From Ignavibacteriota bacterium (GTDB lineage Bacteria; Bacteroidota; Ignavibacteria; UBA10030): DNA of 64,000 nt. Of the stretch, positions 1 through 38,709 are shown one piece after another. The translations under genes were made by a program, and so were the position numbers. The stretch spans positions 1 to 64,000 of the forward strand of contig PMZI01000055.1 of assembly GCA_003170475.1 (NCBI GenBank), in the 5' to 3' direction. Under the pieces are notes generated by a model. That model searched no databases and was not told the origin of the DNA. It saw only the letters and a program-made list of their open reading frames with translations. Numbering within the stretch: position 1 is the stretch's first letter; each line of letters opens with the position of its first letter.

Positions 1-60
1 GCTGGATAGAGCGACAGCCTCCGGAGCTGTAGGCCAGGCGTTCGAATCGCCTCGGGCGCA
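1..60 (+). tRNA. tRNA-Arg (anticodon CCG), 5' end cut by window
   Basis: The window opens inside a tRNA. The D-arm 3' part, the anticodon arm (stem ACAGC/GCTGT, loop CTCCGGA, so anticodon CCG reading CGG for arginine), the T arm (AGGCG-TTCGAAT-CGCCT) and the 3' acceptor strand CGGGCGC with discriminator A are all visible. CCA is not encoded. The missing 5' strand should read GCGCCCG. No terminator is evident before the next gene. Confidence 0.93.
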
Positions 61-105
61 CTTTCTTAACTCTAGACACTACCAAATCAATCGCAGGAAG
101 GATGC

Positions 106-4009: not shown

Positions 4010-5777
4010 AGCCAAACCATCCTCGAAAACCGTACCATCCGCTCAGAAACGACTGCGCACTTCTGTCAAAGGAAGCGCTGACGTTTCCGATGTCGTGCCC
4101 CTGTTCGAATTCAGCAATGTTGTCAACTCCTCCGTCGACCTGAAGTTTATTCTTGGAACAGTTCTCTTGACCGTCATGGGCAAGATGCTCGTTTCCAAAG
4201 GTATGGTGTTGCTGAAGCGCGAGCCCGGAGAGTTTGAAGTGGTCAATGCAAAGGGGGTTGACCCTCTGACCATTGGGAAGAAGATCGAAATCGACAGGCC
4301 TATCCGGAGTGTCGAACACGCCGATCGTGTCCGGGCTACTCAGCCGTGGATGAGTTTCTTCCGCGAACACAGCCAGAAGCTCCTTGTCCCCATCCTTGCT
4401 CAGAAACGCATCATTGGCCTCTTGACTCTCGGAGATCGACTGGGGGGAAAGAAATACACAAAGACTGAGCATCAACTCATCAATTCGCTTGTGAATCTCT
4501 CGGCGGCTGCGATCGAGAAGGCCCTCATGATCAAGCAGCTCCGTGACGTCAACCGGAGCCTCGATCGGAAGTACCAGGAGTTAAATACGCTTTTCGATCT
4601 GAGCAAGGAATTTAATATTATCCTGGATGCGGAGAAAGTCATCCGGTTGCTGACGTTTTCGTTGATGGGTCAGATCGGTGTGAACCGCTATGCCTTCTGT
4701 CTTGAAGACGGAGGGAAACTTCGTTTCGCGGCCTCGAAGCTCGATACGGAAGTTCGATCAACGGAAGTACTTCGCTCGCTTTGTGCACTGAAGGGGGCCG
4801 ACCTGGTTGAGAACCTCGCTAAGCAGAAGAGGTTTTTCATCGTCGCGGAATTTCTGGCGCAGATTGGAATTGTTGCTGTCGTGCCGATGCAAATCCAGAA
4901 CCAGGTGAAGGGAGCCGTCCTTCTCGGAGAGAAGCTCCGTGGAGCGGATTATACGAAGGGTGACCTGGAATTTCTGTACTCACTGGCGAATCTCGCTATT
5001 ATTTCGATCGAAAATGCGAGACTTTTCCGCGAAGCGATTGAGAAGCAAAAAATGGAGGATGAACTCGCGATAGCCCGTGAAATTCAGCAAGGACTTCTGC
5101 CAACAACGCTTCCAAAAATTCCGGGATTTGAGGTCGCAGCTATTAACATCACCTCAAAGCAGGTGGGCGGTGATTATTACGATGTTCTGCCGATCCATTT
5201 TGACGAGTACATTCTTGTGATCGGAGACGTCTCTGGTAAAGGGACGCCTGCAGCTTTGCTCATGGCGAACGTCCAGGCGGCGCTTCGCGCATTTGCGCCG
5301 ATGGGTATGTCGCTCCCCGTTGCTACGGCGCGAATCAATGATTTGACCTGCTCAAATACCGGTCAGGATAAGTTCATTACTTTCTTCTGGGGATCTCTGA
5401 ATAGTGTGACAAAGGAGTTCCGATACGTGAACGCCGGCCACAATCCTCCTTTTCTCTTGAGGGCAGACGGCACGATTGAAAGACTCGAGCTTGGAGGTAT
5501 CATCCTTGGACTCATGAAAACTCTGACACCTTACCAGGAAGGCAGTGTGACCCTTGGTCAGGGAGACGTTGTCTTCATGTTTACGGATGGTGTCAGCGAG
5601 GCAATGGACTCGCAGGAAGTCGATTTCACAGAAGAACGCCTCGAGGAGGTTTTGAAGACCGTTCGGACAAAGACTCCCTCAGAGATCATCCACGCAGTGC
5701 AAGCTGCACTTGAAACGCACACACAAGGCACGCCGCAATCAGACGACATCACGGTCCTCGTCATCAAAGCACTGTGA
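3993..5777 (+). CDS. Cytoplasmic double-GAF SpoIIE-type PP2C phosphatase
   Basis: A 594-residue protein without membrane segments: GAF-like domains at about 30-190 and 205-350, then a SpoIIE phosphatase domain at about 365-594 (AREIQQGLLP, VGGDYYDV, GDVSGKGTPAAL, NAGHNPP, FTDGVSEA, DDITVLVI). The start is a GTG inside the end of the kinase gene; no better ATG keeps the first GAF domain whole. It is the second phosphatase of the same partner-switching module. The membrane phosphatase at 983 would give one input and this soluble sensor another. The ligands of its GAF domains cannot be told from sequence. Confidence 0.88.
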   Translation: MNRALKAKPSSKTVPSAQKRLRTSVKGSADVSDVVPLFEFSNVVNSSVDLKFILGTVLLTVMGKMLVSKGMVLLKREPGEFEVVNAKGVDPLTIGKKIEIDRPIRSVEHADRVRATQPWMSFFREHSQKLLVPILAQKRIIGLLTLGDRLGGKKYTKTEHQLINSLVNLSAAAIEKALMIKQLRDVNRSLDRKYQELNTLFDLSKEFNIILDAEKVIRLLTFSLMGQIGVNRYAFCLEDGGKLRFAASKLDTEVRSTEVLRSLCALKGADLVENLAKQKRFFIVAEFLAQIGIVAVVPMQIQNQVKGAVLLGEKLRGADYTKGDLEFLYSLANLAIISIENARLFREAIEKQKMEDELAIAREIQQGLLPTTLPKIPGFEVAAINITSKQVGGDYYDVLPIHFDEYILVIGDVSGKGTPAALLMANVQAALRAFAPMGMSLPVATARINDLTCSNTGQDKFITFFWGSLNSVTKEFRYVNAGHNPPFLLRADGTIERLELGGIILGLMKTLTPYQEGSVTLGQGDVVFMFTDGVSEAMDSQEVDFTEERLEEVLKTVRTKTPSEIIHAVQAALETHTQGTPQSDDITVLVIKAL

Positions 5778-30261: not shown

Positions 30262-31158
30262 TTAGAATTGGAATCCGAGTGAAAAGAGATGGCTATCGCC
30301 TAGTCCAAGCGAAAACGGGACATATGCGTAGTCGAGTTGAATAAAATCAAGGTGAATCCCCATGCCAGCGGACAGGGCGCGGGATTCATATCCGGTTTGA
30401 TATCCGCAACGAAGAGACACCTTTTGGCTATACACCGCCTCAAGACTTCCCTGCAAATGACTTTCATGATCTCGAAGGTTGTTGGCCCACGCTCCTGAAA
30501 AGGAGAAATCAAACTCATCCTGTTGGAGGGCGTATGACGCACCGACGCGCGAAAAAGTGGGTAAGTCAGAACTCTCGTTTTGAAATTGCTGCAGTCTTCC
30601 GAGGTTTGTCACGGCGAAGCCGACGCTCAAGCCCAGAAGAGGAGTGCTGTAGGTGAGGCCGGCATCGAATCCGAAACCTGCCGCCTCATCAACATACAAC
30701 TTTTCGTACAGGTATTTGGTGGATGCACCGATCACCACATCACGCGTCACAGCCTGAGCATAGCCCATTTGGAACGAGGCAAACCTTGCATTGAATGTGC
30801 CCAGCGACGGACCTGGAACATCTCTGATCTCAATTCCGGGGACGCTGTTGATCGATCCTCCAAGTCCCAGAGCGCCGGCGGCGACAGGGATCCTGACGGC
30901 GAGAATCTCCGTCTGAATCGTTTGAATCCACTGAGAGTGAGTGAGTGTCACTGAGAGGGGAGCGACTGAGAATAGATTTGCGGGATTGACCAACCAGGAG
31001 GAGAATTGTCCGGGATCTGAAACGGTGCTTTCACCCAAGGCTGCTGATCGCGCACTGAGCGGTATCTTCAATTGTGATGAACCCACAGAAGTGCCCTGTG
31101 CTCTTGCCGGAGAAGAGACGAACAACAAGATTGCTGCGAAAAATGCTTTCCGAATCAT
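30262..31158 (-). CDS. PorV/PorQ-family outer-membrane protein
   Basis: A 298-residue beta-barrel protein with a signal peptide (cut near PARA-QG) and the family opening LKIPLSARSAALGES plus SSWLVNPANL. It ends in FSLGFQF with a terminal aromatic residue, as outer-membrane barrels do. PorQ/PorV proteins work with the type IX secretion system in Bacteroidota, and related proteins occur widely in the group. No other T9SS gene lies here, so secretion-partner status is inference. It overlaps the second barrel gene by 4 bases. Confidence 0.82.
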   Translation of the reverse strand: MIRKAFFAAILLFVSSPARAQGTSVGSSQLKIPLSARSAALGESTVSDPGQFSSWLVNPANLFSVAPLSVTLTHSQWIQTIQTEILAVRIPVAAGALGLGGSINSVPGIEIRDVPGPSLGTFNARFASFQMGYAQAVTRDVVIGASTKYLYEKLYVDEAAGFGFDAGLTYSTPLLGLSVGFAVTNLGRLQQFQNESSDLPTFSRVGASYALQQDEFDFSFSGAWANNLRDHESHLQGSLEAVYSQKVSLRCGYQTGYESRALSAGMGIHLDFIQLDYAYVPFSLGLGDSHLFSLGFQF

Positions 31159-32138
31159 TCGAAGCCCACGGTTAGCGATAACATATGGATACCGCCAGCC
31201 GAGTATGGCTCAAAGATGTATCCATAGGTAAGGACCGGTTTCCATGACGCGACAGGCGATTGTAGAGAGAATCCGAGGCTCGGTTTCGCGCTAATGCTTC
31301 CATCAAAGGCAACCTGATCGATTCCACCACGAATTGTTAGATTTTCGTGCAATGGGATTTCCAAACCACCACGTGAAAGCCAGGTTGAACCTATCCATTC
31401 GATTTCCCCCGACCATCTACTCTTGAAAAAGGTCGGCGCATAGCAGACTGCCAGCCTACGCCGGAGAGGGAAGTGCTCAATCGTCGTATTGCCATCTTGG
31501 CCGTAAAGCGAAGAAGTATCCCACTTGTACTTCGAATTGATATCTCCCACGATGAGGCCAAACGCCCATTCTTCGTTGACGGCATACAGCATTCCGAGGT
31601 CAAATCCAACTGTCGTGCTTTTTACTCCCTGGAATAGGGAATAGTACAGAATTTTTGCTGAAACTCCTATTGCGAGATCGGGCCGAATCTTCGTACCGAA
31701 GGAAAAAAGAAATTCGTTTTCAGACGTTGAATATGTTTCTGTTTGGACTCCGTCGGAATTTCGTCCTTCGAGTTTGGAGACTCCGGCATTGATAATGGCC
31801 AAAGAAAATCCCCCCGCCGGTTTCATGCTCTGTGTGTAGCTGAGGAAATTCAGGTTTCGATCCATGGGCAAAAAACCTGTCGATACATATGCCGTTCGCT
31901 GCGCCTGAAAAGCAACGATGGCGGGATTGTAGTAGCTGAGTCCTTCGCCGTTAACGAGAGCGCCGATGCTGTTTCCCATCGTCATACCTTGTGCACCAAA
32001 GCCCATCCTCATGGCTGAACCGGCGAGTCCGCCCAGAGTATAATTGTTTTGAGCGTAGACCCTCGTTGGGATGAGATGCGAAACGGTGATGAGAACAAAA
32101 GCGAGAGCACCTGTATATATGGTTAGTCGTCTTCTCAT
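31155..32138 (-). CDS. PorV-like outer-membrane protein
   Basis: A 327-residue protein with a signal peptide (TGALAFVLITVSHLI, cut near VYA-QN) and the PorV-like lead RMGFGAQGMTMGNSIGA followed by GLSYYNPAIVA. The C-terminus ends LSLTVGFE. It is a diverged paralogue of the barrel encoded next to it. The ATG at 32138 is preferred over one 8 codons upstream because it gives the standard ATGA overlap with the propeller gene and opens the signal peptide. Possibly a barrel that binds or shuttles the propeller protein. Confidence 0.8.
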   Translation of the reverse strand: MRRRLTIYTGALAFVLITVSHLIPTRVYAQNNYTLGGLAGSAMRMGFGAQGMTMGNSIGALVNGEGLSYYNPAIVAFQAQRTAYVSTGFLPMDRNLNFLSYTQSMKPAGGFSLAIINAGVSKLEGRNSDGVQTETYSTSENEFLFSFGTKIRPDLAIGVSAKILYYSLFQGVKSTTVGFDLGMLYAVNEEWAFGLIVGDINSKYKWDTSSLYGQDGNTTIEHFPLRRRLAVCYAPTFFKSRWSGEIEWIGSTWLSRGGLEIPLHENLTIRGGIDQVAFDGSISAKPSLGFSLQSPVASWKPVLTYGYIFEPYSAGGIHMLSLTVGFE

Positions 32139-33703
32139 TGTAATACAAAGATCTTGCCCCATTGTGGGTCTGTATCCTCGAGTTCTACCCTGTAGAAGTA
32201 GACGCCGTTTGAAACGCGCCGTCCGAGATCGTCGCGCCCGTCCCAGATTTCATCATGCTCAACTGATCCGGTTCTCGTAGCTCCTCGCAATAATGTTTTC
32301 ACGGGTGCCATCGCAAAATCGAAGATCCGAATTGTCACAGGCATTGTCTTTCCCGAGGTGGAATAGTGAATGCGCACGACTTCTGAAGCAGGCGAAAACG
32401 GGAGCGGGAAGGAATACGTTTTGCTGGTGGCCTGAACGGGGACATATGTCCTGAAAACCTCCCAGGTGGAACCGAACTGCTGCGCAGGTGAATCAATCGT
32501 ATAAGCGAGTCCATCGTCTCCTCCGACCCAGACTGTGTCGCCATTGGCTGCAGTGGCGGTCGTCCGCGATGACGCAAATCGCTGGAGGTTCGCATGATCA
32601 ATGACGCTTCCACTGCGAGTCCACGATTGCCCATAGTCGGCAGATCGATACAACCCTCCATCAGCCGCAACATAGACAATCGAGTCGCGCACCGCGATGT
32701 TGTGGGCAAATTCTCCAAGGAGACCCGTGCCCCATGTCTCACCGCCGTCGGTGGAAAAACTCACTCCCCTTTTTTCGTCAGGGTCGACGGCATTGCTAGT
32801 AGCCGCCCAAATCACTTGTTTTGACTTCCAGCGCTGTTCCGTGATGCCGACCACGAAATTTCCTGAGATCGGTCTCAGTTGGTTCTGATGATTGAACTTA
32901 CGCCAACTGACTCCACCGTCGGTTGATTTGTTGATGCCATTTGCCGTGCCAACATACAAGGTCGAATCGTCAGTTGCGCAGATTGAGAAAACTGCATAGT
33001 TAAGACTTGCGTGGAGAGTGTCCTTATTATAGAGAGTATCATCCTTGAAGTACTTCTCCACACCGGACATGGAGAAGTGGAGAGAGTCCGTCGGAGATAT
33101 TCGATTGAGATTGTCCGGAGGCAGGACGATTCGCTGCCAAGCTCTTCCTTGATTTGTCGATTTGCGGAGCATCCCGGCCCAACTTGCGGTCCAGATCGCG
33201 TTCTGCGTTAATGCTATATCCCAAGTGACGTTTTGCTGAAGCACGGTACTAGCAAGCGCGGGAATCTTGTTTCGACCGTAGATGATTGTGTCGACTTTTC
33301 CCGTGTCGACTGGTTGCGGTAGGAATGTCCACGTTGAACCGCGGTCTGTGGAGTAGTGCAGACCGCCCCCTGTGGGAACAGATTGATTGTCGCTCTGAGT
33401 TGAGTATTCCGATGCAACCCAGATAGTATTCCCGCGAATTGCCACAGCAGAAACACTCTTCCCGTCAAATGTCTCGGCCATCGTAAACAGCTTCCAACTT
33501 CGCCCAGCATCTGTCGTATAGCTTAACCCTGTTCCTGAACCCACCCAGATTGTATCTCCCCGTGGAATGATCTTGGCGATCGAGTTACTCTGAGGAAGAG
33601 AATTCAGTTGAGCGCCTGTGGACGAATAGGAACTCGCAACCTGACCTTGGGCGGGTAGCCAAACAGCAAATGACATGAGCGATATGAGCGCAGTCGATCT
33701 CAT
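32135..33703 (-). CDS. Exported beta-propeller protein with FlgD-like C-terminal domain
   Basis: The 522-residue protein has a signal peptide and several propeller blades with BNR/Asp-box-like motifs (TTDAGRSW, STDRGSTW, STNQGRAW, STDGGVSW, STDGGETW, SADYGQSW). A FlgD-type Ig-like domain occupies the last 85 residues (IRIFDFAMAPVKTLL, EIWDGRDDLGRRVSNGVYFYR). Such C-terminal domains occur on exported proteins in this group and are sometimes T9SS cargo signals. It is probably a surface or secreted protein; its ligand is unknown. ATGA overlaps with both neighbours. Confidence 0.85.
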   Translation of the reverse strand: MRSTALISLMSFAVWLPAQGQVASSYSSTGAQLNSLPQSNSIAKIIPRGDTIWVGSGTGLSYTTDAGRSWKLFTMAETFDGKSVSAVAIRGNTIWVASEYSTQSDNQSVPTGGGLHYSTDRGSTWTFLPQPVDTGKVDTIIYGRNKIPALASTVLQQNVTWDIALTQNAIWTASWAGMLRKSTNQGRAWQRIVLPPDNLNRISPTDSLHFSMSGVEKYFKDDTLYNKDTLHASLNYAVFSICATDDSTLYVGTANGINKSTDGGVSWRKFNHQNQLRPISGNFVVGITEQRWKSKQVIWAATSNAVDPDEKRGVSFSTDGGETWGTGLLGEFAHNIAVRDSIVYVAADGGLYRSADYGQSWTRSGSVIDHANLQRFASSRTTATAANGDTVWVGGDDGLAYTIDSPAQQFGSTWEVFRTYVPVQATSKTYSFPLPFSPASEVVRIHYSTSGKTMPVTIRIFDFAMAPVKTLLRGATRTGSVEHDEIWDGRDDLGRRVSNGVYFYRVELEDTDPQWGKIFVLQ

Positions 33704-34623
33704 GGGATCACCGTAAGGCGAAGGATGATAACATTGCTTGGCTCATTTGATCGATCAAAAGCCTGGAATTCAAATCTGTATGTCCCAAGTTGAGTATTCG
33801 ATGGGAGGGAGATAAGGAGGCTATAGACCCCATCTCCCGCGTCTTGATCCCCATGAGCCGTCAAACCATCGTCATACATCAGGAATGGATTGCCCCCAGA
33901 GGCTGAACTGTCTGGTTTGTACGAGTTGAAAACAACTCTAGCAACATCCTTAAGTCCATCCGGGTCGCTTGCTCGGACCGTGAGAAGCAATGCTTGTGAC
34001 TGATTGCCGAGCTTGACCGTGGTGGGTGCAGAAAGATCTGAGATGATGGGAGGGTGATTTCCGCGGTATACGCGAAGTGGCATAATGATGGCATTGCTGC
34101 GGTAGCCATCCTGCGATTCCGCAATCACTTGTACAGCATAGGAGCCGACCTGCACACGTCTGATTTGAAATGATGCCTTGCCTGAAAAGAAGCCATCTCC
34201 TTTTGTGAAATCAGGGGATTGACCGTTGTCCAGTAGAGCGCCGCTCGAAACGACGTTGAGGCTGTCAGAACTTACGATGGAGTAATTGACCGAGATCGGA
34301 AGTTGGTAGCCGGCTTGGACCCGTGCCACCACCGTCGTGGTGATTGGCAGCAGATCGTCTGGTTGGCGACTTGACGCGACATTTATAGAATCACTGTTGA
34401 TTTCTGACGGTGAAAGGGTGACCTGTGGTAAGAAAGGAGCAGCTCCGGTAGAATCCACAATCTCATTGTTCTTCTTCTCGCAGCTCCCAACAATCAAAGC
34501 GGCCACAATGAAGAGCGCTTGACGGATCGCATGTGCAAAGTAATGACATGAGAAAACGCTACGCGTGTTCTTGACGAATCGTGAACTTGAGAAGAATAAA
34601 GGGAGAAGATGAAGCTGACTCAA
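33700..34623 (-). CDS. Lipoprotein with Ig-like repeats
   Basis: A 307-residue protein. A lipobox ALIVGSC at Cys48 follows a hydrophobic stretch, and the mature part looks like two beta-sandwich domains, with VVARVQAGYQLPISVNYSIV and VRASDPDGLKDVARVVF resembling cadherin/PKD-type signatures and a DDGLTAHGDQDAGDGVYS turn. The given ATG leaves 34 residues before the lipoprotein signal, so translation may really start further in. It is the first gene of the operon, about 90 bases after its promoter, and overlaps the propeller gene by 4 bases. Confidence 0.75.
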   Translation of the reverse strand: MSQLHLLPLFFSSSRFVKNTRSVFSCHYFAHAIRQALFIVAALIVGSCEKKNNEIVDSTGAAPFLPQVTLSPSEINSDSINVASSRQPDDLLPITTTVVARVQAGYQLPISVNYSIVSSDSLNVVSSGALLDNGQSPDFTKGDGFFSGKASFQIRRVQVGSYAVQVIAESQDGYRSNAIIMPLRVYRGNHPPIISDLSAPTTVKLGNQSQALLLTVRASDPDGLKDVARVVFNSYKPDSSASGGNPFLMYDDGLTAHGDQDAGDGVYSLLISLPSNTQLGTYRFEFQAFDRSNEPSNVIILRLTVIP

Positions 34624-34764: not shown

Positions 34765-35814
34765 CTAAATAGACACCGTAAAAGGAGAGAATGAAAAGCA
34801 GAGAATAAAGACCGCCAGCGCAATCCAACCGACGACGATGCGCTTTTGATCTAGGGGAGTTTCATCGGCGACAGATGGATGGTAGAGTTTCACCACGTAA
34901 AACGATATCAGAGCCCACAGGAACCATCCGCTCCAACTGTATTGGGCGAACGGTATAACCTGTTTGAGGGGTTGTGCAACGAAAAAAGTCGAGATACCTC
35001 GCATGAGACTGTCGAGGATAGAAGGCAATCCGAGGATCAGCAGGAACACGAAGAAGAATTTGGCAACGAAGCGGTGTTTGTCACCAAGTATTGTGTAAGC
35101 AATGTGTCCTCCATCGAATTGTCCGATCGGGATAAGATTCATGGCGGTGACAAAAAGCCCAAACCACCCTACGCAGAGCAGGGGATAATGATAGATCTCG
35201 GACATCGGGGGAACAAACTGCCTTGTCGGATCCGTAAAAAGTGACGAGAGTGTGCTGTAGAGAATAGTATTGCCAAATTCTAGGGGGAGTCCCTGTGCCT
35301 CATTGGTCGAGTTGGTCAAAAAGTCATAATGAGGGTGAAGAGCCAAGATGTATTCACGCCCTGGAAGCGTAAGGAAGCCTAGGACGAGGACTATGATGCA
35401 CGCGACAAAGCCTGCCAGCGGGCCAGCAACTCCAATGTCGAACATGGCCTTTCGAGTTGGGACTGCTGTCTTTGTTCGGATTAGTGCGCCAAGTGTTCCA
35501 AAGTTAAGGAAAAATGGAGTCGGGGGAAAAGGCAGGAAATATGGCAACGTGACTTCAACTCGATGATATCTAGCGGCGAAGTAATGACCAAACTCATGTG
35601 AACCGAGAACAAATAAGATGGCCACAGAATAGGGGAGACCGTGGCTGAAGTTGGTCAACTCGAATGCATTTTTGCCAACCCATTCGACTCCTGCGACGGT
35701 CGTTGTAAAGAAGGTCGACAGGAAAAGCAGAAGGTTTAAGGCAACGCGGGGATCGCGTGCAGGGGCACTAGGAACTCGCGCCTGCTGATCACCTTGAGGG
35801 AGATGCTGAGTCAT
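34765..35814 (-). CDS. Site-2 protease family membrane metallopeptidase (M50)
   Basis: A 349-residue polytopic protein with the zinc-binding HEFGHYFAARYH in an early membrane segment and the second M50 motif NLIPIGQFDGGH near residue 235. About six or seven membrane helices are present and there is no PDZ domain, unlike RseP. M50 proteases cut substrates within the membrane and in some bacteria mature secreted signal peptides or clear signal-peptide remnants (Eep in Enterococcus). The adjacent upstream gene on the same strand encodes a short exported repeat peptide, which is a conceivable but unproven substrate. Confidence 0.9.
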   Translation of the reverse strand: MTQHLPQGDQQARVPSAPARDPRVALNLLLFLSTFFTTTVAGVEWVGKNAFELTNFSHGLPYSVAILFVLGSHEFGHYFAARYHRVEVTLPYFLPFPPTPFFLNFGTLGALIRTKTAVPTRKAMFDIGVAGPLAGFVACIIVLVLGFLTLPGREYILALHPHYDFLTNSTNEAQGLPLEFGNTILYSTLSSLFTDPTRQFVPPMSEIYHYPLLCVGWFGLFVTAMNLIPIGQFDGGHIAYTILGDKHRFVAKFFFVFLLILGLPSILDSLMRGISTFFVAQPLKQVIPFAQYSWSGWFLWALISFYVVKLYHPSVADETPLDQKRIVVGWIALAVFILCFSFSPFTVSI

Positions 35815-35858
35815 TCAATCCGAGATTTTTTTCCAATACTCAAGACCACTTCGGACTG

Positions 35859-35887
35859 AATATACGAAAGGAGGTAAGCAAAACCAA
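35859..35887 (-). promoter_or_regulatory. Possible promoter of the M50 protease gene
   Basis: On the minus strand: TTGGTT, 17-base spacer, TATATT, 45 bases before the ATG. The -10 is perfect for this genome's consensus; the -35 matches at four of six positions. Confidence 0.5.
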
Positions 35888-35893
35888 TAGACT

Positions 35894-35939
35894 ACTCCGA
35901 TAGCATTCGAGAGTGGGGAGCTCAGAATGCTATCGGAGT
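35894..35939 (-). terminator. Perfect 15-bp inverted repeat downstream of peptide gene
   Basis: ACTCCGATAGCATTC and its exact complement flank a 16-base loop. It lies 24 bases after the peptide stop codon and just upstream of the M50 promoter. No long T-run follows on either strand, so it could be a terminator, an RNA-stability hairpin or a protein-binding palindrome. Confidence 0.55.
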
Positions 35940-35963
35940 TGAGGGAGAAAACAGCCTAATGGC

Positions 35964-36164
35964 TCACAGAATTGGCGGCTGTGCAGGTTTGTTAGTGGTG
36001 CCACTTCTATGAACTGTCTCTGACTTGAGGATTGGCGGCTGCGCGGGTTTGTTAGTAGTCCCACTTCTTGATGCACCGTACGATATCGCAAAGTTCGTTC
36101 CGAACGTGATGATTAGCGCAATTATGATAGCGCGGAACCGCTTCGCGTTGCGAGATTTAGTCAT
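35964..36164 (-). CDS. Small exported peptide with two identical 14-residue units
   Basis: The 66-residue product has a basic start (K3, R5, K8, R9, R11), a hydrophobic core (about 12-22) and a probable signal-peptidase site after ISYGA. The 35-residue mature part contains RSGTTNKPAQPPIL twice (residues 33-46 and 53-66), joined by KSETVH, the second copy ending at the C-terminus. The two DNA copies differ at six codons and all six changes are silent, so the amino-acid unit appears conserved by selection. A strong GGAGGT precedes the ATG by about 6 bases. I do not recognise the peptide. It may be a secreted signal or a small structural peptide; neighbours are an M50 protease and a divergent membrane/AAA+ unit. 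Confidence 0.72.
   Translation of the reverse strand: MTKSRNAKRFRAIIIALIITFGTNFAISYGASRSGTTNKPAQPPILKSETVHRSGTTNKPAQPPIL
35967..36068 (-). repeat. Two coding direct repeats, 42 bases each, 60-base period
   Basis: Units at 36027-36068 and 35967-36008 encode the same 14 residues. Differences are GGG/GGC, ACT/ACC, CCC/CCT, GCG/GCA, ATC/ATT and CTC/CTG, all third positions. The 18-base spacer encodes KSETVH. Confidence 0.9.
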
Positions 36165-36237
36165 GATGACCTCCGAGTGAAGGTAAGAGTGATATAAGTC
36201 ACGAGAATTTGCAGTTTGGGCTAAAACGTTTCCGTAA

Positions 36238-36265
36238 ATTTTGGCTAATTAATGGCAAATGTCAA
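36238..36265 (-). promoter_or_regulatory. Possible promoter of the repeat-peptide gene
   Basis: On the minus strand: TTGACA, 16-base spacer, CAAAAT, about 73 bases before the ATG. The -35 is perfect and the -10 matches at four of six positions. Confidence 0.45.
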
Positions 36266-36405
36266 GAAGAAAGTTCGCCAATACTGCGGAATAGTCCTTC
36301 ATCCAAGGAGCAGTCTCTAGTCATTCTTCAATAAGTCATTCATAATAAACAATTTATGGTGTTCGTGATGCAACACACTGCGAAGACAACTTTTCGAGTT
36401 TTTTC

Positions 36406-36434
36406 TTGACAACGATGCTATCCAGTATTATATT
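36406..36434 (+). promoter_or_regulatory. Promoter of the divergent membrane-protein/AAA+ unit
   Basis: TTGACA, 17-base spacer, TATATT, 26 bases before the ATG of the membrane protein; the same hexamers as at tRNA-Ala. The 296 bases between the divergent starts are AT-rich and hold this promoter and the one at 36238. Confidence 0.8.
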
Positions 36435-36460
36435 CGTCACAGATAACGAAGGAAAAAATC

Positions 36461-37609
36461 ATGGATATCTTCAAGAAAGTAGCTCTTGTTTGGATTGGAG
36501 TTGCGACGCTTGGTTCTGCCTGTCTGCTGTGGCTACCAAACTCCAGCCCGAGCGCATTTTCTGTGGTGTCTGATGGTTTGCTGTTCTTGATTGCCTTGGT
36601 GTGCCTCGCACTCTATTTCAAGGATCCAATCGCAGCGAACAAACCCATCTTCATAAATTTCTCAGCGTTCTTTTTCCTTTCGATTATTTCTTTTGCCTAC
36701 AAGTTCGCTGGATTTACCTTTTTCGCGGATAATCAGTGGATGAGGTTCTACCTCTTTCAATATCACCTGTTGGCGTACTTCTTTCTCTTGGCCTTCGCCG
36801 TTGTATATGTCGTGATTGATTCCCTGTTTGAAGATTTCAGAACCCACAAAAAGTACATCATTACTCTCCTGATCGCAGGTGGGACATTCGCATATTACTA
36901 CTACCCATACTTTCAGAATCCAGACTTCCTGAAATCGAGTGATGAGATTGTCGATTGCAGGGCGATAAGCAATTCAATGAAGCAACTCGCAACAAAAGGC
37001 GTAACAAATCCCACTCTGAAGGAACTGGCTGCTTTCACAGATCTAGGGGTTTGGAGAGACGGAAAACAAATTGGCTCTCTCTATGATGATCAGAAAATAT
37101 ACAGAGTGAGTGAATTGCTCCCCTATCTGGATGGGGCCAATATCTATGTCCTTTTGTACAAACCATTGTACTTGAGTAACATCTACATGAACGTCTTGTG
37201 CGTCATCTTTGTATTCCTTTTCTTTGGTTACCAGTACAAGAACGACCCGCCACAAGGCGCATATATCGAAAAAATCATTTTCCTTTTCCTGCCGTATTGC
37301 TCGCTTGAAATTCTGCACCATTACGCTTACATTAAGTCTGTCGAATACAGTACGTTTGAGGATGTGCAGCAGATCGGTATCTACCTAACGCTTGTGAATA
37401 TGGGACTGCTGTTGGTGTTCTTTAGTTTACGGTTACGGTTCATCACGAGCGTCAAAGGCGAATTTTATGAGCGAGAACTGGTTTCTGACGCTGAACATAT
37501 TAGTCGTTGGCGCGACGCTTTTGATAATCTTGTTGTACGCCATTTTCTTAACCCGAAAGCGATTCATGGAAGGCTTTTTGCACCGCGTTCGCCAAGAGGT
37601 GACGCCTAG
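36461..37609 (+). CDS. Polytopic membrane protein, unknown, possible sensor
   Basis: A 382-residue protein with about eight hydrophobic segments (near 5-25, 32-52, 64-86, 97-119, 133-150, 238-256, 269-285, 303-326), a polar loop at 151-237 and a charged C-terminal tail of about 55 residues. I recognise no enzyme motif. The layout, several helices with one sizeable external loop and a cytoplasmic tail, would suit a receptor or transporter-like sensor. The gene is visibly AT-richer than its surroundings. AAGGAAAAAA precedes the ATG. Its last 143 bases are overlapped in another frame by a second small membrane gene. Confidence 0.75.
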   Translation: MDIFKKVALVWIGVATLGSACLLWLPNSSPSAFSVVSDGLLFLIALVCLALYFKDPIAANKPIFINFSAFFFLSIISFAYKFAGFTFFADNQWMRFYLFQYHLLAYFFLLAFAVVYVVIDSLFEDFRTHKKYIITLLIAGGTFAYYYYPYFQNPDFLKSSDEIVDCRAISNSMKQLATKGVTNPTLKELAAFTDLGVWRDGKQIGSLYDDQKIYRVSELLPYLDGANIYVLLYKPLYLSNIYMNVLCVIFVFLFFGYQYKNDPPQGAYIEKIIFLFLPYCSLEILHHYAYIKSVEYSTFEDVQQIGIYLTLVNMGLLLVFFSLRLRFITSVKGEFYERELVSDAEHISRWRDAFDNLVVRHFLNPKAIHGRLFAPRSPRGDA

Positions 37610-37646
37610 CTTTTTTCAAAGAGTCATTCTTAAACTTTTTGGATGA
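37467..37646 (+). CDS. 59-residue single-span membrane peptide overlapping the upstream gene
   Basis: An ATG with AAAGGCG 7-8 bases upstream opens a frame of 59 codons that lies mostly inside the end of the preceding gene in another frame. The product has one hydrophobic span (about residues 6-28, containing ILVVGATLLIILLYAIF), then TRKRF and an amphipathic basic tail (EGFLHRVRQEVTPSFFQR). Such a topology is unlikely by chance, and it ends 24 bases before the AAA+ gene. Alternatively it is an accidental frame, or the upstream gene is frameshifted into it. I favour a real overlapping gene. Confidence 0.5.
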   Translation: MSENWFLTLNILVVGATLLIILLYAIFLTRKRFMEGFLHRVRQEVTPSFFQRVILKLFG

Positions 37647-37670
37647 ACTCGTATTCGACAGGTTTGAACA

Positions 37671-38648
37671 ATGGAAGAAACAATCATCGGTAGAAGCAAG
37701 TCGATCGACCAGCTGAGGAAGCAGATCGCGAGGGTTGCGAGAACGCCAAAAGACATCCTGGTCATCGGAGAGTCCGGCGTAGGGAAGGGAATCGTTGCCA
37801 AGAGAGTGCACTCGGAACAATTCGGTGACACGAATGGCCAACATCCATTCCTCTCGGTAAACGCCTCTGTGATTGATGATCGCGAACTGGAAGCAGTGCT
37901 CTTTGGTTTTGAGAAGGGCGTTCCGGGAATGCCGCCGACCACAAAGCGCGGCTTGTTTGAGCTTGCCGAGAACGGCTCAGTACTGATTGAAGAAATCGAA
38001 GATGCGAGTTTCCGCAACCAGATGAAGATCCTGGATTTCATTCGCTATCGGGTGGCAAAACGAATGGGGGGTGATGAAGGAAGAGCGGTGAGCACACGAG
38101 TCATCCTCACGCTGAAGCGGCCTCCCGAAGCATTGCTCTCATCCCACAAGCTCTATGAAGACCTAGCGGTGAAGCTGAATGAGTTTGAATCAATAGCGGT
38201 AATGCCCCTCCGCGAGCGTCCGGACGATATTCCCGTGCTGGTGAAGCATTTTGTGAACGAAATCAGCAAGGACTTGGGAATCAAGGATGTGGCTATCGAT
38301 ATTAATGCGATCGATATTTTGGTCCGACACCCGTGGAAAGAAAATATTCGGGAACTGAAAGCAGTCATAGACAAGTCCATCCTCTTCTCAGAAGGTGGAA
38401 GATTCGTTCTTCCGACAGAATTGACCGACGAGAAGACGGAAGTTGTGAAGATGATCAACAATGTCATTAGCGGTCAGGAGTTTGTGCTGGACAACTCCCT
38501 CGACGTAATTGAAAAAGGGATCATTGAAAGGGCTTTGGATCGCTTCGGGTTCAACCAATCCCGAGCCGCATCATTCTTGGGAATGACGGAGCAGACCCTT
38601 CGCTATAAACTGAAACGGTTGGCAATCCCAAGCGCAAGGCATAGATAA
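37671..38648 (+). CDS. AAA+ sigma54-activator-like protein without GAFTGA, Fis-type HTH
   Basis: The 325-residue protein begins directly with the AAA+ domain: Walker A GESGVGKG (33-40), a Walker-B-like VLIEEIED (104-111), RERPDDIPVL and the C-terminal RHPWKENIRELKAVI typical of sigma54 activators. A Fis-type helix-turn-helix (RALDRFGFNQSRAASFLGMT) follows near 275-315. The GAFTGA loop that contacts sigma54 is replaced by GVPGMP (83-88). No receiver domain is present. It therefore probably binds DNA but may not remodel sigma54 in the usual way. Input may come from the membrane proteins encoded just upstream. Confidence 0.85.
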   Translation: MEETIIGRSKSIDQLRKQIARVARTPKDILVIGESGVGKGIVAKRVHSEQFGDTNGQHPFLSVNASVIDDRELEAVLFGFEKGVPGMPPTTKRGLFELAENGSVLIEEIEDASFRNQMKILDFIRYRVAKRMGGDEGRAVSTRVILTLKRPPEALLSSHKLYEDLAVKLNEFESIAVMPLRERPDDIPVLVKHFVNEISKDLGIKDVAIDINAIDILVRHPWKENIRELKAVIDKSILFSEGGRFVLPTELTDEKTEVVKMINNVISGQEFVLDNSLDVIEKGIIERALDRFGFNQSRAASFLGMTEQTLRYKLKRLAIPSARHR

Positions 38649-38677
38649 TCACTGCCTTCACTAGAGCACGAACAGAA

Positions 38678-38709
38678 ACGCCCTCCTCAAGAGGGCGTTT
38701 TCTTTTTCT
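38678..38709 (+). terminator. Intrinsic terminator between convergent genes
   Basis: AACGCCCTC and GAGGGCGTT form a 9-bp stem with a 5-base loop, followed by TTTTCTTTTTC. It ends the AAA+ unit and sits 19 bases from the end of the convergent PHP gene, so it may serve both strands. Confidence 0.8.

Follow-up and report, generated by a model that had tools for sequence, protein, structure and literature searches.

Does a small exported peptide, encoded next to a polytopic membrane protein and a DNA-binding AAA+ protein in an Ignavibacteriota genome, belong with these two to a signalling system of its own? The window, i.e., the whole stretch of DNA that was analysed, comprises bases 1-64000 of contig C16 in genome G000 (4.08 Mb, 85 contigs). 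A preliminary description of it had proposed that an M50 protease releases a repeated unit from the exported precursor, which is then sensed by the membrane protein and relayed to the AAA+ protein. All open reading frames (ORFs) noted there are present at their positions, and the gene set is real. Judged from sequence comparisons, precursor, eight-transmembrane (8-TM) protein and AAA+ protein probably constitute a peptide pheromone-receptor-regulator system (probability about 0.74). A multi-copy peptide appears to be encoded beside genes for a seven-helix receptor and a regulator, much like the mating pheromone of yeast and its receptor.

Conservation of the three genes and the repeated unit

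The comparison included 100 relatives, with 45 genomes matching the membrane protein. Up to 20 kb was taken around 40 places, giving 37 ortholog loci with a full or nearly full membrane-protein match (L052-L088, one per genome, that of the window included) and three paralogous loci (L089-L091). The other eight matching genomes hold contig-end fragments or paralogs only, and 20 + 12 further stretches cover the remaining matches and contig ends. The AAA+ gene lies 3' of the membrane-protein gene on the same strand in 37/37 ortholog loci, and a divergent exported precursor is encoded in all 36 that include upstream DNA, L072 offering only 291 bases there. At least two units are present in 35 of these 36 loci, with a single unit seen by eye in L057; the precursor of L077, whose ORF had been called too long, was added by sequence, and L059 and L083 feature two precursor genes each. 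The linkage in relatives that the preliminary description had expected was thereby confirmed for these three genes.

A class-wide search of 391 genomes (precursor profile at E 0.001, membrane protein at E 1e-5) detected the precursor in 45, the membrane protein in 49 and both in 44 genomes. In G016, the one genome with the precursor alone, the contig start truncates the locus, and four of the five membrane-protein-only genomes (G001, G063, G071, G100) are cut at contig ends; the fifth, G023, has clade-3 paralogs only, and a contig start coincides with the beginning of its AAA+ ortholog. The co-occurrence has a Fisher value of 2e-51, which overstates independence, the genomes being related. An AAA+ ortholog of at least 430 bits is present in 46 of the 100 relatives and is accompanied by the membrane protein in 43, the exceptions being G045 and G051 (contig ends) and G056. 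In G075 and G084 the membrane-protein match belongs to clade 2, and no AAA+ protein exceeds 430 bits. These distributions support the reading of precursor, membrane protein and AAA+ protein as one conserved system, the conserved product of which would be the repeated unit.

The named records encoding relatives of the membrane protein (35 loci) are metagenome-assembled genomes or uncultured organisms labelled Ignavibacteria/-iae/-iales, Bacteroidetes/Bacteroidota/Bacteroidia or Chlorobi/Chlorobiaceae, besides one 'uncultured bacterium' and one Nomurabacteria. The contig labelled Candidatus Nomurabacteria (L104) carries a precursor with four units, the membrane protein and the AAA+ protein and is probably misbinned. 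Separately, G000 features a second membrane protein/AAA+ pair (L089, G000:C76:119986-122110), 33% and 36% identical to the first and with no visible peptide gene. Similar pairs occur in G002 and G003, one is split over contigs in G005, and G010 and G023 have tandem membrane proteins. Several contigs break inside the membrane-protein gene, as seen by eye (G001:C154, G063:C75, G067:C57, G074:C63, G100:C110, G110:C457, G119:C158, G128:C243, C368), perhaps due to strong strain differences within one population at this place.

The 66-residue exported peptide with two identical 14-residue units was described correctly, and its layout recurs in the orthologs. In the window, the two copies are 88% identical in DNA and differ inside the units by synonymous changes only (synonymous differences per site, pS, 0.554; non-synonymous, pN, 0), so the repeat exceeds chance. 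SGTTNKPAQPPIL would be the likely active core of the window unit. For the relatives, a detector demanding a hydrophobic stretch after a positive residue and at least two copies of a unit of at least nine residues was applied to 5032 ORFs in 61 loci, signal peptides being called by this hydrophobicity rule and not by a dedicated predictor. Its 40 matches comprise 38 divergent precursors beside the membrane protein, one alternative frame over a precursor (L075) and one immunoglobulin (Ig)-like protein (L087). Without the latter two and with L077 added, the set amounts to 39 precursors, which contain two (8 precursors), three (14), four (13) or five, six, seven and nine units (one each). The unit is species-specific, 12-14 residues long and frequently of the form S-G-x4-P-D-x-P-[RK]-P; as delimited, 28/39 units end in P[RK]P. 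Examples are STVPLLPDSPRP (L066, four copies), KSGVMNIPDPPRP (L069, four), KTSGVPVGKPDSPRP (L065, three) and RSGGPIAPSDIPRPT (L061, nine copies with linkers unlike each other). Pooled over the 39 precursors, copies within a gene show a pS of 0.497 and a pN of 0.037. Since synonymous sites have diverged (49.7%) and non-synonymous ones hardly (3.7%), the copies are old and have been held identical in protein.

Between units there is mostly no linker, one K/R/E/Q residue or a short stretch of varied sequence. In L078, L080 and L081, the first copy starts at the presumed signal peptidase site (..IS[FY]A, by eye), a single K separates the copies and the last one ends at the stop codon; these ends and this spacing indicate a 12-residue product such as SGMPIIPDSPKP. 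Precursors of the alpha-factor type share this layout, with several identical short units behind a signal peptide, and PMC10569646 describes the fungal alpha-factor precursor as a signal peptide plus repeats (2-18 in Leotiomycetes) of a 9-14-residue pheromone. The likeness extends to the seven-transmembrane (7TM) receptor discussed below. The system described here differs in being bacterial, with no G protein known, and in its spacers: regular KR/RR/KK spacers are absent between the units of the precursor set, as are sites of the KEX1/2 and STE13 kind. Single units are found in the f9 precursors, i.e., SGN[ST]M[LF]PD[SA]P[DH]PRD in L127, L137 and L138 and a similar one in L153. All four clade-2 paralog loci with upstream DNA (L131, L133, L134, L139) encode a divergent exported peptide that by eye is proline-rich near its end.

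The membrane protein as candidate receptor and its regulator

No Pfam family, including those of G protein-coupled receptors (GPCRs), fits any of 30 members of the membrane-protein family (best scattered E 0.0023), and domain scans found no histidine kinase domain. An N-terminal likeness to the histidine kinase PrsK (NCBIfam E 0.13) is not significant and was rejected, and no PDB sequence matches the membrane-protein profile at E<=1. AlphaFold models of the window protein (predicted local distance difference test, pLDDT, 83.9) and of the distant clade-2 member L133 (pLDDT 85.2) both feature eight transmembrane (TM) helices. According to the positive-inside rule, with conserved basic loops TM2/3, TM4/5 and TM6/7 and a basic C-tail, both termini would be cytoplasmic and the TM5-TM6 domain (153-233) periplasmic. 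A loop predicted to be cytoplasmic, GYQYKNDPPQGAYIEK, and the C-tail are conserved. Compared to GPCR 7TM structures, residues 24-334 of the window model reach a best Z of 14.2 (mGlu2, root-mean-square deviation, rmsd, 3.9 over 224 residues) and the L133 model one of 14.3 (5-HT2A, rmsd 4.1 over 222 residues), the best 50 matches being GPCRs in both cases. Thus, the predicted models contain a 7TM bundle with its N-terminus outside and its C-terminus inside, and the membrane protein probably has a GPCR-like arrangement; homology is not claimed. The yeast receptor Ste2 is likewise a 7TM protein of N-out/C-in orientation. No sequence relation to Ste2 was found, and the gene here differs in being tied to a DNA-binding AAA+ protein and in encoding one extra N-terminal TM helix.

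Co-variation of peptide and membrane protein was analysed in 32 loci. Mean pairwise identity amounts to 0.34 for TM1-5 and the periplasmic loop, 0.55 for TM6-8 and tail, 0.66 for the AAA+ protein and 0.53 for M50. Loci with a shared unit have nearly identical TM1-5 segments (L069/L074, 0.95; L080/L081, with one V/I difference in the unit, 0.96 at an M50 identity of 0.83), whereas in L084/L085, with a changed unit, TM1-5 identity drops to 0.72 although M50 (0.82) and AAA+ (0.97) remain similar. In a partial Mantel test with AAA+ and M50 distance as covariates and 2000 permutations, peptide distance is correlated with that of TM1-5 (partial r 0.309, p 0.0005, the permutation floor), and no partial correlation exists for the loop (0.055, p 0.28), TM6-8 (0.066, p 0.25) or the tail (0.089, p 0.20). 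This test is possibly too liberal for related sequences, for which the other segments of the membrane protein serve as internal control. Among 25 windows of 25 residues, the highest partial r values occur at 76-100 (0.313, p 0.001) and 16-40 (0.245, p 0.001), i.e., around the two periplasmic loops predicted for TM1-4. Raised values are also seen in windows 1-25, 31-55, 61-85 and 91-115 (p 0.004-0.011); the partial r of the cytoplasmic window 46-70 is -0.001, and past residue 115 no window has a p <0.05. Peptide divergence thus seems to track TM1-5 beyond relatedness. The long periplasmic loop is not supported as the specificity element, given its lack of co-variation after correction for relatedness and the window scan.

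The AAA+ protein of the window matches PF00158 (E 7.3e-33) and PF02954 (E 3.1e-14), i.e., a sigma54-activator domain with a Fis-type helix-turn-helix (HTH). With AAA+, lid and Fis HTH but no receiver, its layout is that of PspF, for which PMC3791423 describes the same domains and the need of a partner protein for control. Differences from PspF concern the motifs and the proposed partner, here an 8-TM membrane protein. Among 57 family members (47 orthologs, 10 paralogs), neither a GAFTGA-like loop nor an arginine-finger motif was found in any. Walker A is kept in 47/47 orthologs, and E replaces the D of Walker B (followed by E, D or N), so that the DE pair occurs in 0/47 orthologs and 2/10 paralogs. 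Sigma54 dependence was rejected on these motifs; the presence of rpoN is uninformative here, because 90/100 relatives have it. The simplest inference from sequence would be that the AAA+ protein acts at non-sigma54 promoters under the control of the membrane protein.

Competing explanations and a proposed mechanism

Several points weigh against a pheromone-receptor-regulator system. Concerning the fold, the alignments behind the two models share 8 rows and the models are not fully independent; both structure comparisons were restricted to chains preselected by Foldseek, helical bundles can reach a Z of about 13 through arrangement alone, and Foldseek itself gave a best E of 0.11 for the window model, i.e., no significant GPCR match. 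The co-variation comes from permutations over 32 loci that are related, its r is modest, and the p values of the 25 windows carry no multiple-testing correction. Before correction, every segment as well as AAA+ and M50 is correlated with the peptide (raw r: TM1-5 0.454, loop 0.174, TM6-8 0.243, tail 0.227, AAA+ 0.394, M50 0.159), and among the 44 closest pairs peptide distance follows the identity of M50 (Spearman -0.57) and AAA+ (-0.52) almost as closely as that of the N-half of the membrane protein (-0.61; TM6-8 -0.31). As units were picked for likeness, pN is biased downwards; a high pS cannot arise that way. Moreover, G056 has the AAA+ gene without a detected membrane protein despite about 1.5 kb of upstream DNA on its contig, and the clade-3 paralogs (6 loci, one in G000) show no peptide gene, for which reason the membrane protein/AAA+ pair can serve another role. 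Finally, the analysis revealed neither a processing protease nor a way out through the outer membrane nor a target gene.

The strongest rival holds that the peptide stays in the cell and reports from the periplasm on secretion, on protease activity or on the state of the envelope to the membrane protein of that cell, with no pheromone involved. A topology suited to sensing at the periplasmic face, a PspF-layout regulator suited to envelope stress and the absence of a recurring exporter gene among the labelled syntenic genes (loci compared with 12 window proteins only) agree with it. It is nevertheless unlikely, since species-specific, fast-changing units that track the membrane protein suit signalling between cells better, and up to nine copies per precursor and the exact unit on a phage-like contig favour such signalling as well. 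This 6.6-kb contig (L158, G041:C35) has a gene at 4399-4518 on the - strand for MKRLLVLLAIVFAVNFLIDCALA-SGVMNIPDPPRP-GAVK. It carries one copy of SGVMNIPDPPRP, the exact unit of the four-copy G041 precursor, directly behind a different signal peptide and with synonymous codons that differ from those of that precursor. A scan of ten of its proteins gave an endolysin-like one (PHROG E 1.8e-8) and one similar to head-closure/virion structural proteins (best E 2.1e-7), the remaining ones giving weak or no matches. The endolysin has 104 relatives in IMG/VR; none were found for a 675-aa protein in INPHARED or IMG/VR, nor for a 149-aa protein in IMG/VR. L158 is likely, not certainly, a phage, and its link to G041 consists of binning and the shared unit. 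A pattern search with this unit in three genomes gave five matches in G041, two in G046 and none in G054. Phage copies of the unit were not found in IMG/VR for the G041 unit (exact match), the window precursor or the L066 precursor, nor in 80 phage loci sharing the L158 endolysin. Searching 59 genomes around G041 with the phage-type gene recovered nothing beyond this gene and ordinary precursors, no second such contig appearing, and IMG/VR yielded no relatives of the membrane protein.

Alternatively, the units might be proline-rich antimicrobial peptides, with membrane protein and AAA+ protein providing immunity and control. The peptides are indeed small, exported and proline-rich, and toxin-immunity pairs would co-vary too. 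This is improbable, as 35/39 units have just 0-2 basic residues and immunity would have to come from a 7TM protein that is invariably tied to a DNA-binding regulator (37/37 loci).

Less probable again is the version of the preliminary description, in which the M50 protease releases the unit as a member of the system. Enterococcal pheromones are processed by the M50 protease Eep, and the present locus resembles that case in having an M50 gene close to an exported-peptide gene. M50 lies close to the precursor on the same strand in 31/37 loci (L061 and L086 are contig-end fragments). In four of the six other loci (L062, L072, L073, L083) the contig end is reached, and in L066 and L082 the genes are unlinked. 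Across the 100 relatives, M50 and membrane protein occur together in 39, M50 alone in 36, the membrane protein alone in 6 and neither in 19 genomes; M50 is thus present in 39/45 genomes with the membrane protein, an association (Fisher p 0.02) that is confounded by assembly completeness. Nevertheless, because 36 of the 55 genomes without a detected membrane protein also carry M50 (75/100 in total), it is a neighbour with a wider role, and it was rejected as a core part on this distribution. Besides, M50 lies on a separate contig in G052 and G038, forms part of a larger syntenic block that includes PorV-like, VPS10-like and Ig genes and is separated from the precursor gene by a 15-bp inverted repeat. 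Dedication to the peptide system, as for Eep, was not found; M50 is more widely distributed, and the conserved product is the exported part, not the signal peptide. As a housekeeping enzyme, M50 could clear signal-peptide remnants. A multi-core precursor of a ribosomally synthesized and post-translationally modified peptide, several cores per precursor being known from some cyanobactins and graspetides, is hardly credible given a Sec-type signal peptide in place of a leader and no modification enzyme among the labelled locus genes (not every neighbour annotated).

Returning to the pheromone-receptor-regulator system, the following sequence of events is proposed. The precursors present a Sec-type signal peptide and 1-9 copies of the 12-14-residue unit. 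Cleavage by signal peptidase would expose the N-terminus of the first copy, the C-terminus of the last would often be set by the stop codon, and some periplasmic peptidase might cut the K/R or short linkers in between. The unit may then bind the 8-TM protein from the periplasmic side, close to loops TM1/2 and TM3/4 and to upper TM1-5. In response, the 7TM bundle might alter the exposure of the conserved cytoplasmic loop and C-tail and so hold or release the AAA+ protein, a step modelled on PspA, which controls the domain-poor AAA+ regulator PspF in trans. The Fis-HTH AAA+ protein without sigma54 loop could finally alter transcription from promoters of the ordinary kind, the shared divergent region perhaps among them.

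The logic of secreted peptide, receptor and regulator is known. Agr/ComD and RRNPP systems encode an exported precursor by the receptor gene and employ a species-specific peptide, and the present locus resembles this Gram-positive quorum sensing in both respects. It differs from Agr/ComD in a membrane protein without histidine kinase domain and in several identical copies per precursor. For RRNPP, PMC10075063 places the exported peptide precursor next to the receptor gene. By the tests made here, precursor, membrane protein and regulator fit no known peptide-signalling family, and no published description of such a system was found in the open-licence literature (preprints not included), which is weak evidence of absence. 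It is an even call whether an alpha-factor-type pheromone system evolved in the Ignavibacteria lineage independently of fungi, with a multi-copy peptide, a co-diversifying GPCR-like 7TM receptor, a repurposed AAA+ output and a phage carrying the host unit. If true, this would represent a new kind of bacterial peptide signalling, with species-specific signals decodable straight from genomes across a poorly known lineage. Outside Gram-positive bacteria, few cases of peptide signalling via a dedicated membrane receptor are known. The system would allow ligand-receptor co-evolution to be tested in bacteria, and it raises the question of an independent origin of a 7TM receptor with GPCR arrangement.

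Further features of the locus

Table 1. Genes and sequence elements of the locus, with positions in the window.
Feature	Position	Strand	Remark
M50 site-2-protease-like gene	34765-35814	-	Pfam Peptidase_M50 E 2.7e-22; neighbour by synteny, not specific to the system
Precursor gene, 66 aa, exported	35964-36164	-	signal peptide, then two identical RSGTTNKPAQPPIL units, linker KSETVH
Unit copy 1, RSGTTNKPAQPPIL	36027-36068	-	
Unit copy 2, RSGTTNKPAQPPIL	35967-36008	-	terminates at stop codon; protein identical to copy 1, differences only synonymous
Membrane-protein gene, 382 aa, 8-TM, predicted peptide receptor	36461-37609	+	TM2-8 form a GPCR-like 7TM bundle in the model
59-aa membrane-peptide gene	37467-37646	+	overprinted on 3' end of membrane-protein gene; families f1 and f5 only
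AAA+ regulator gene, 325 aa	37671-38648	+	Sigma54_activat, AAA_lid_14, Fis-type HTH_8
Promoter-like site of membrane protein-AAA+ unit	36406-36434	+	TTGACA-17-TATATT, 11/12 matches
Promoter-like site of precursor gene	36238-36265	-	TTGACA-16-CAAAAT, 10/12 matches
Palindrome GTGATATAAGTCAC, GTGA-N6-TCAC	36189-36202	strand-neutral	present in 16/36 homologous intergenic regions
Terminator-like hairpin, 11 pairs	38675-38701	+	closes membrane protein-AAA+ unit

The 59-residue membrane peptide, originally counted among the parts of the system, is a genuine overlapping gene but, being confined to families f1 and f5 (14/14 loci, compared to 0/23 elsewhere), no core part. Its frame shares 143 nt with the end of the membrane-protein gene, an overlap that the preliminary description does not mention, and where it is present, pS in the membrane-protein frame amounts to 0.20 in the overlap versus 0.80 upstream (42 pairs, 13 loci). 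In loci lacking the frame, pS is 0.84 in both parts (190 pairs, 20 loci, more divergent).

Separate promoters on both sides and a terminator after the AAA+ gene had also been described. Promoter-like sites and a hairpin are indeed seen at these places; such sites occur in the scan at near-chance frequency (7 promoter-like sites vs 4.8 expected, 6 terminator-like vs 4.5) and alone are little proof, since the counts barely exceed expectation. In the precursor/membrane-protein intergenic regions of relatives, CTTGACA is enriched (25/36 regions, against 12-15 for the top 7-mer of 10 shuffles). The GTGA-N6-TCAC palindrome likewise exceeds the top count for any 4-mer dyad in 20 shuffles of these regions, which was 8, and occurs 31 times in 670 kb of loci overall, intergenic regions included. 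As an operator of the AAA+ protein it was discarded, being absent from the 500 nt upstream in 8/8 clade-2/3 loci tested. Given this absence and its presence in 3/3 f9 loci, a CRP/FNR-type factor is equally likely to account for the motif, which resembles CRP/FNR sites. Beside the M50 gene, a block of PorV-like, VPS10/BNR and Ig-like genes extends over 31155-34623 of the window and was found in many of the 37 ortholog loci.

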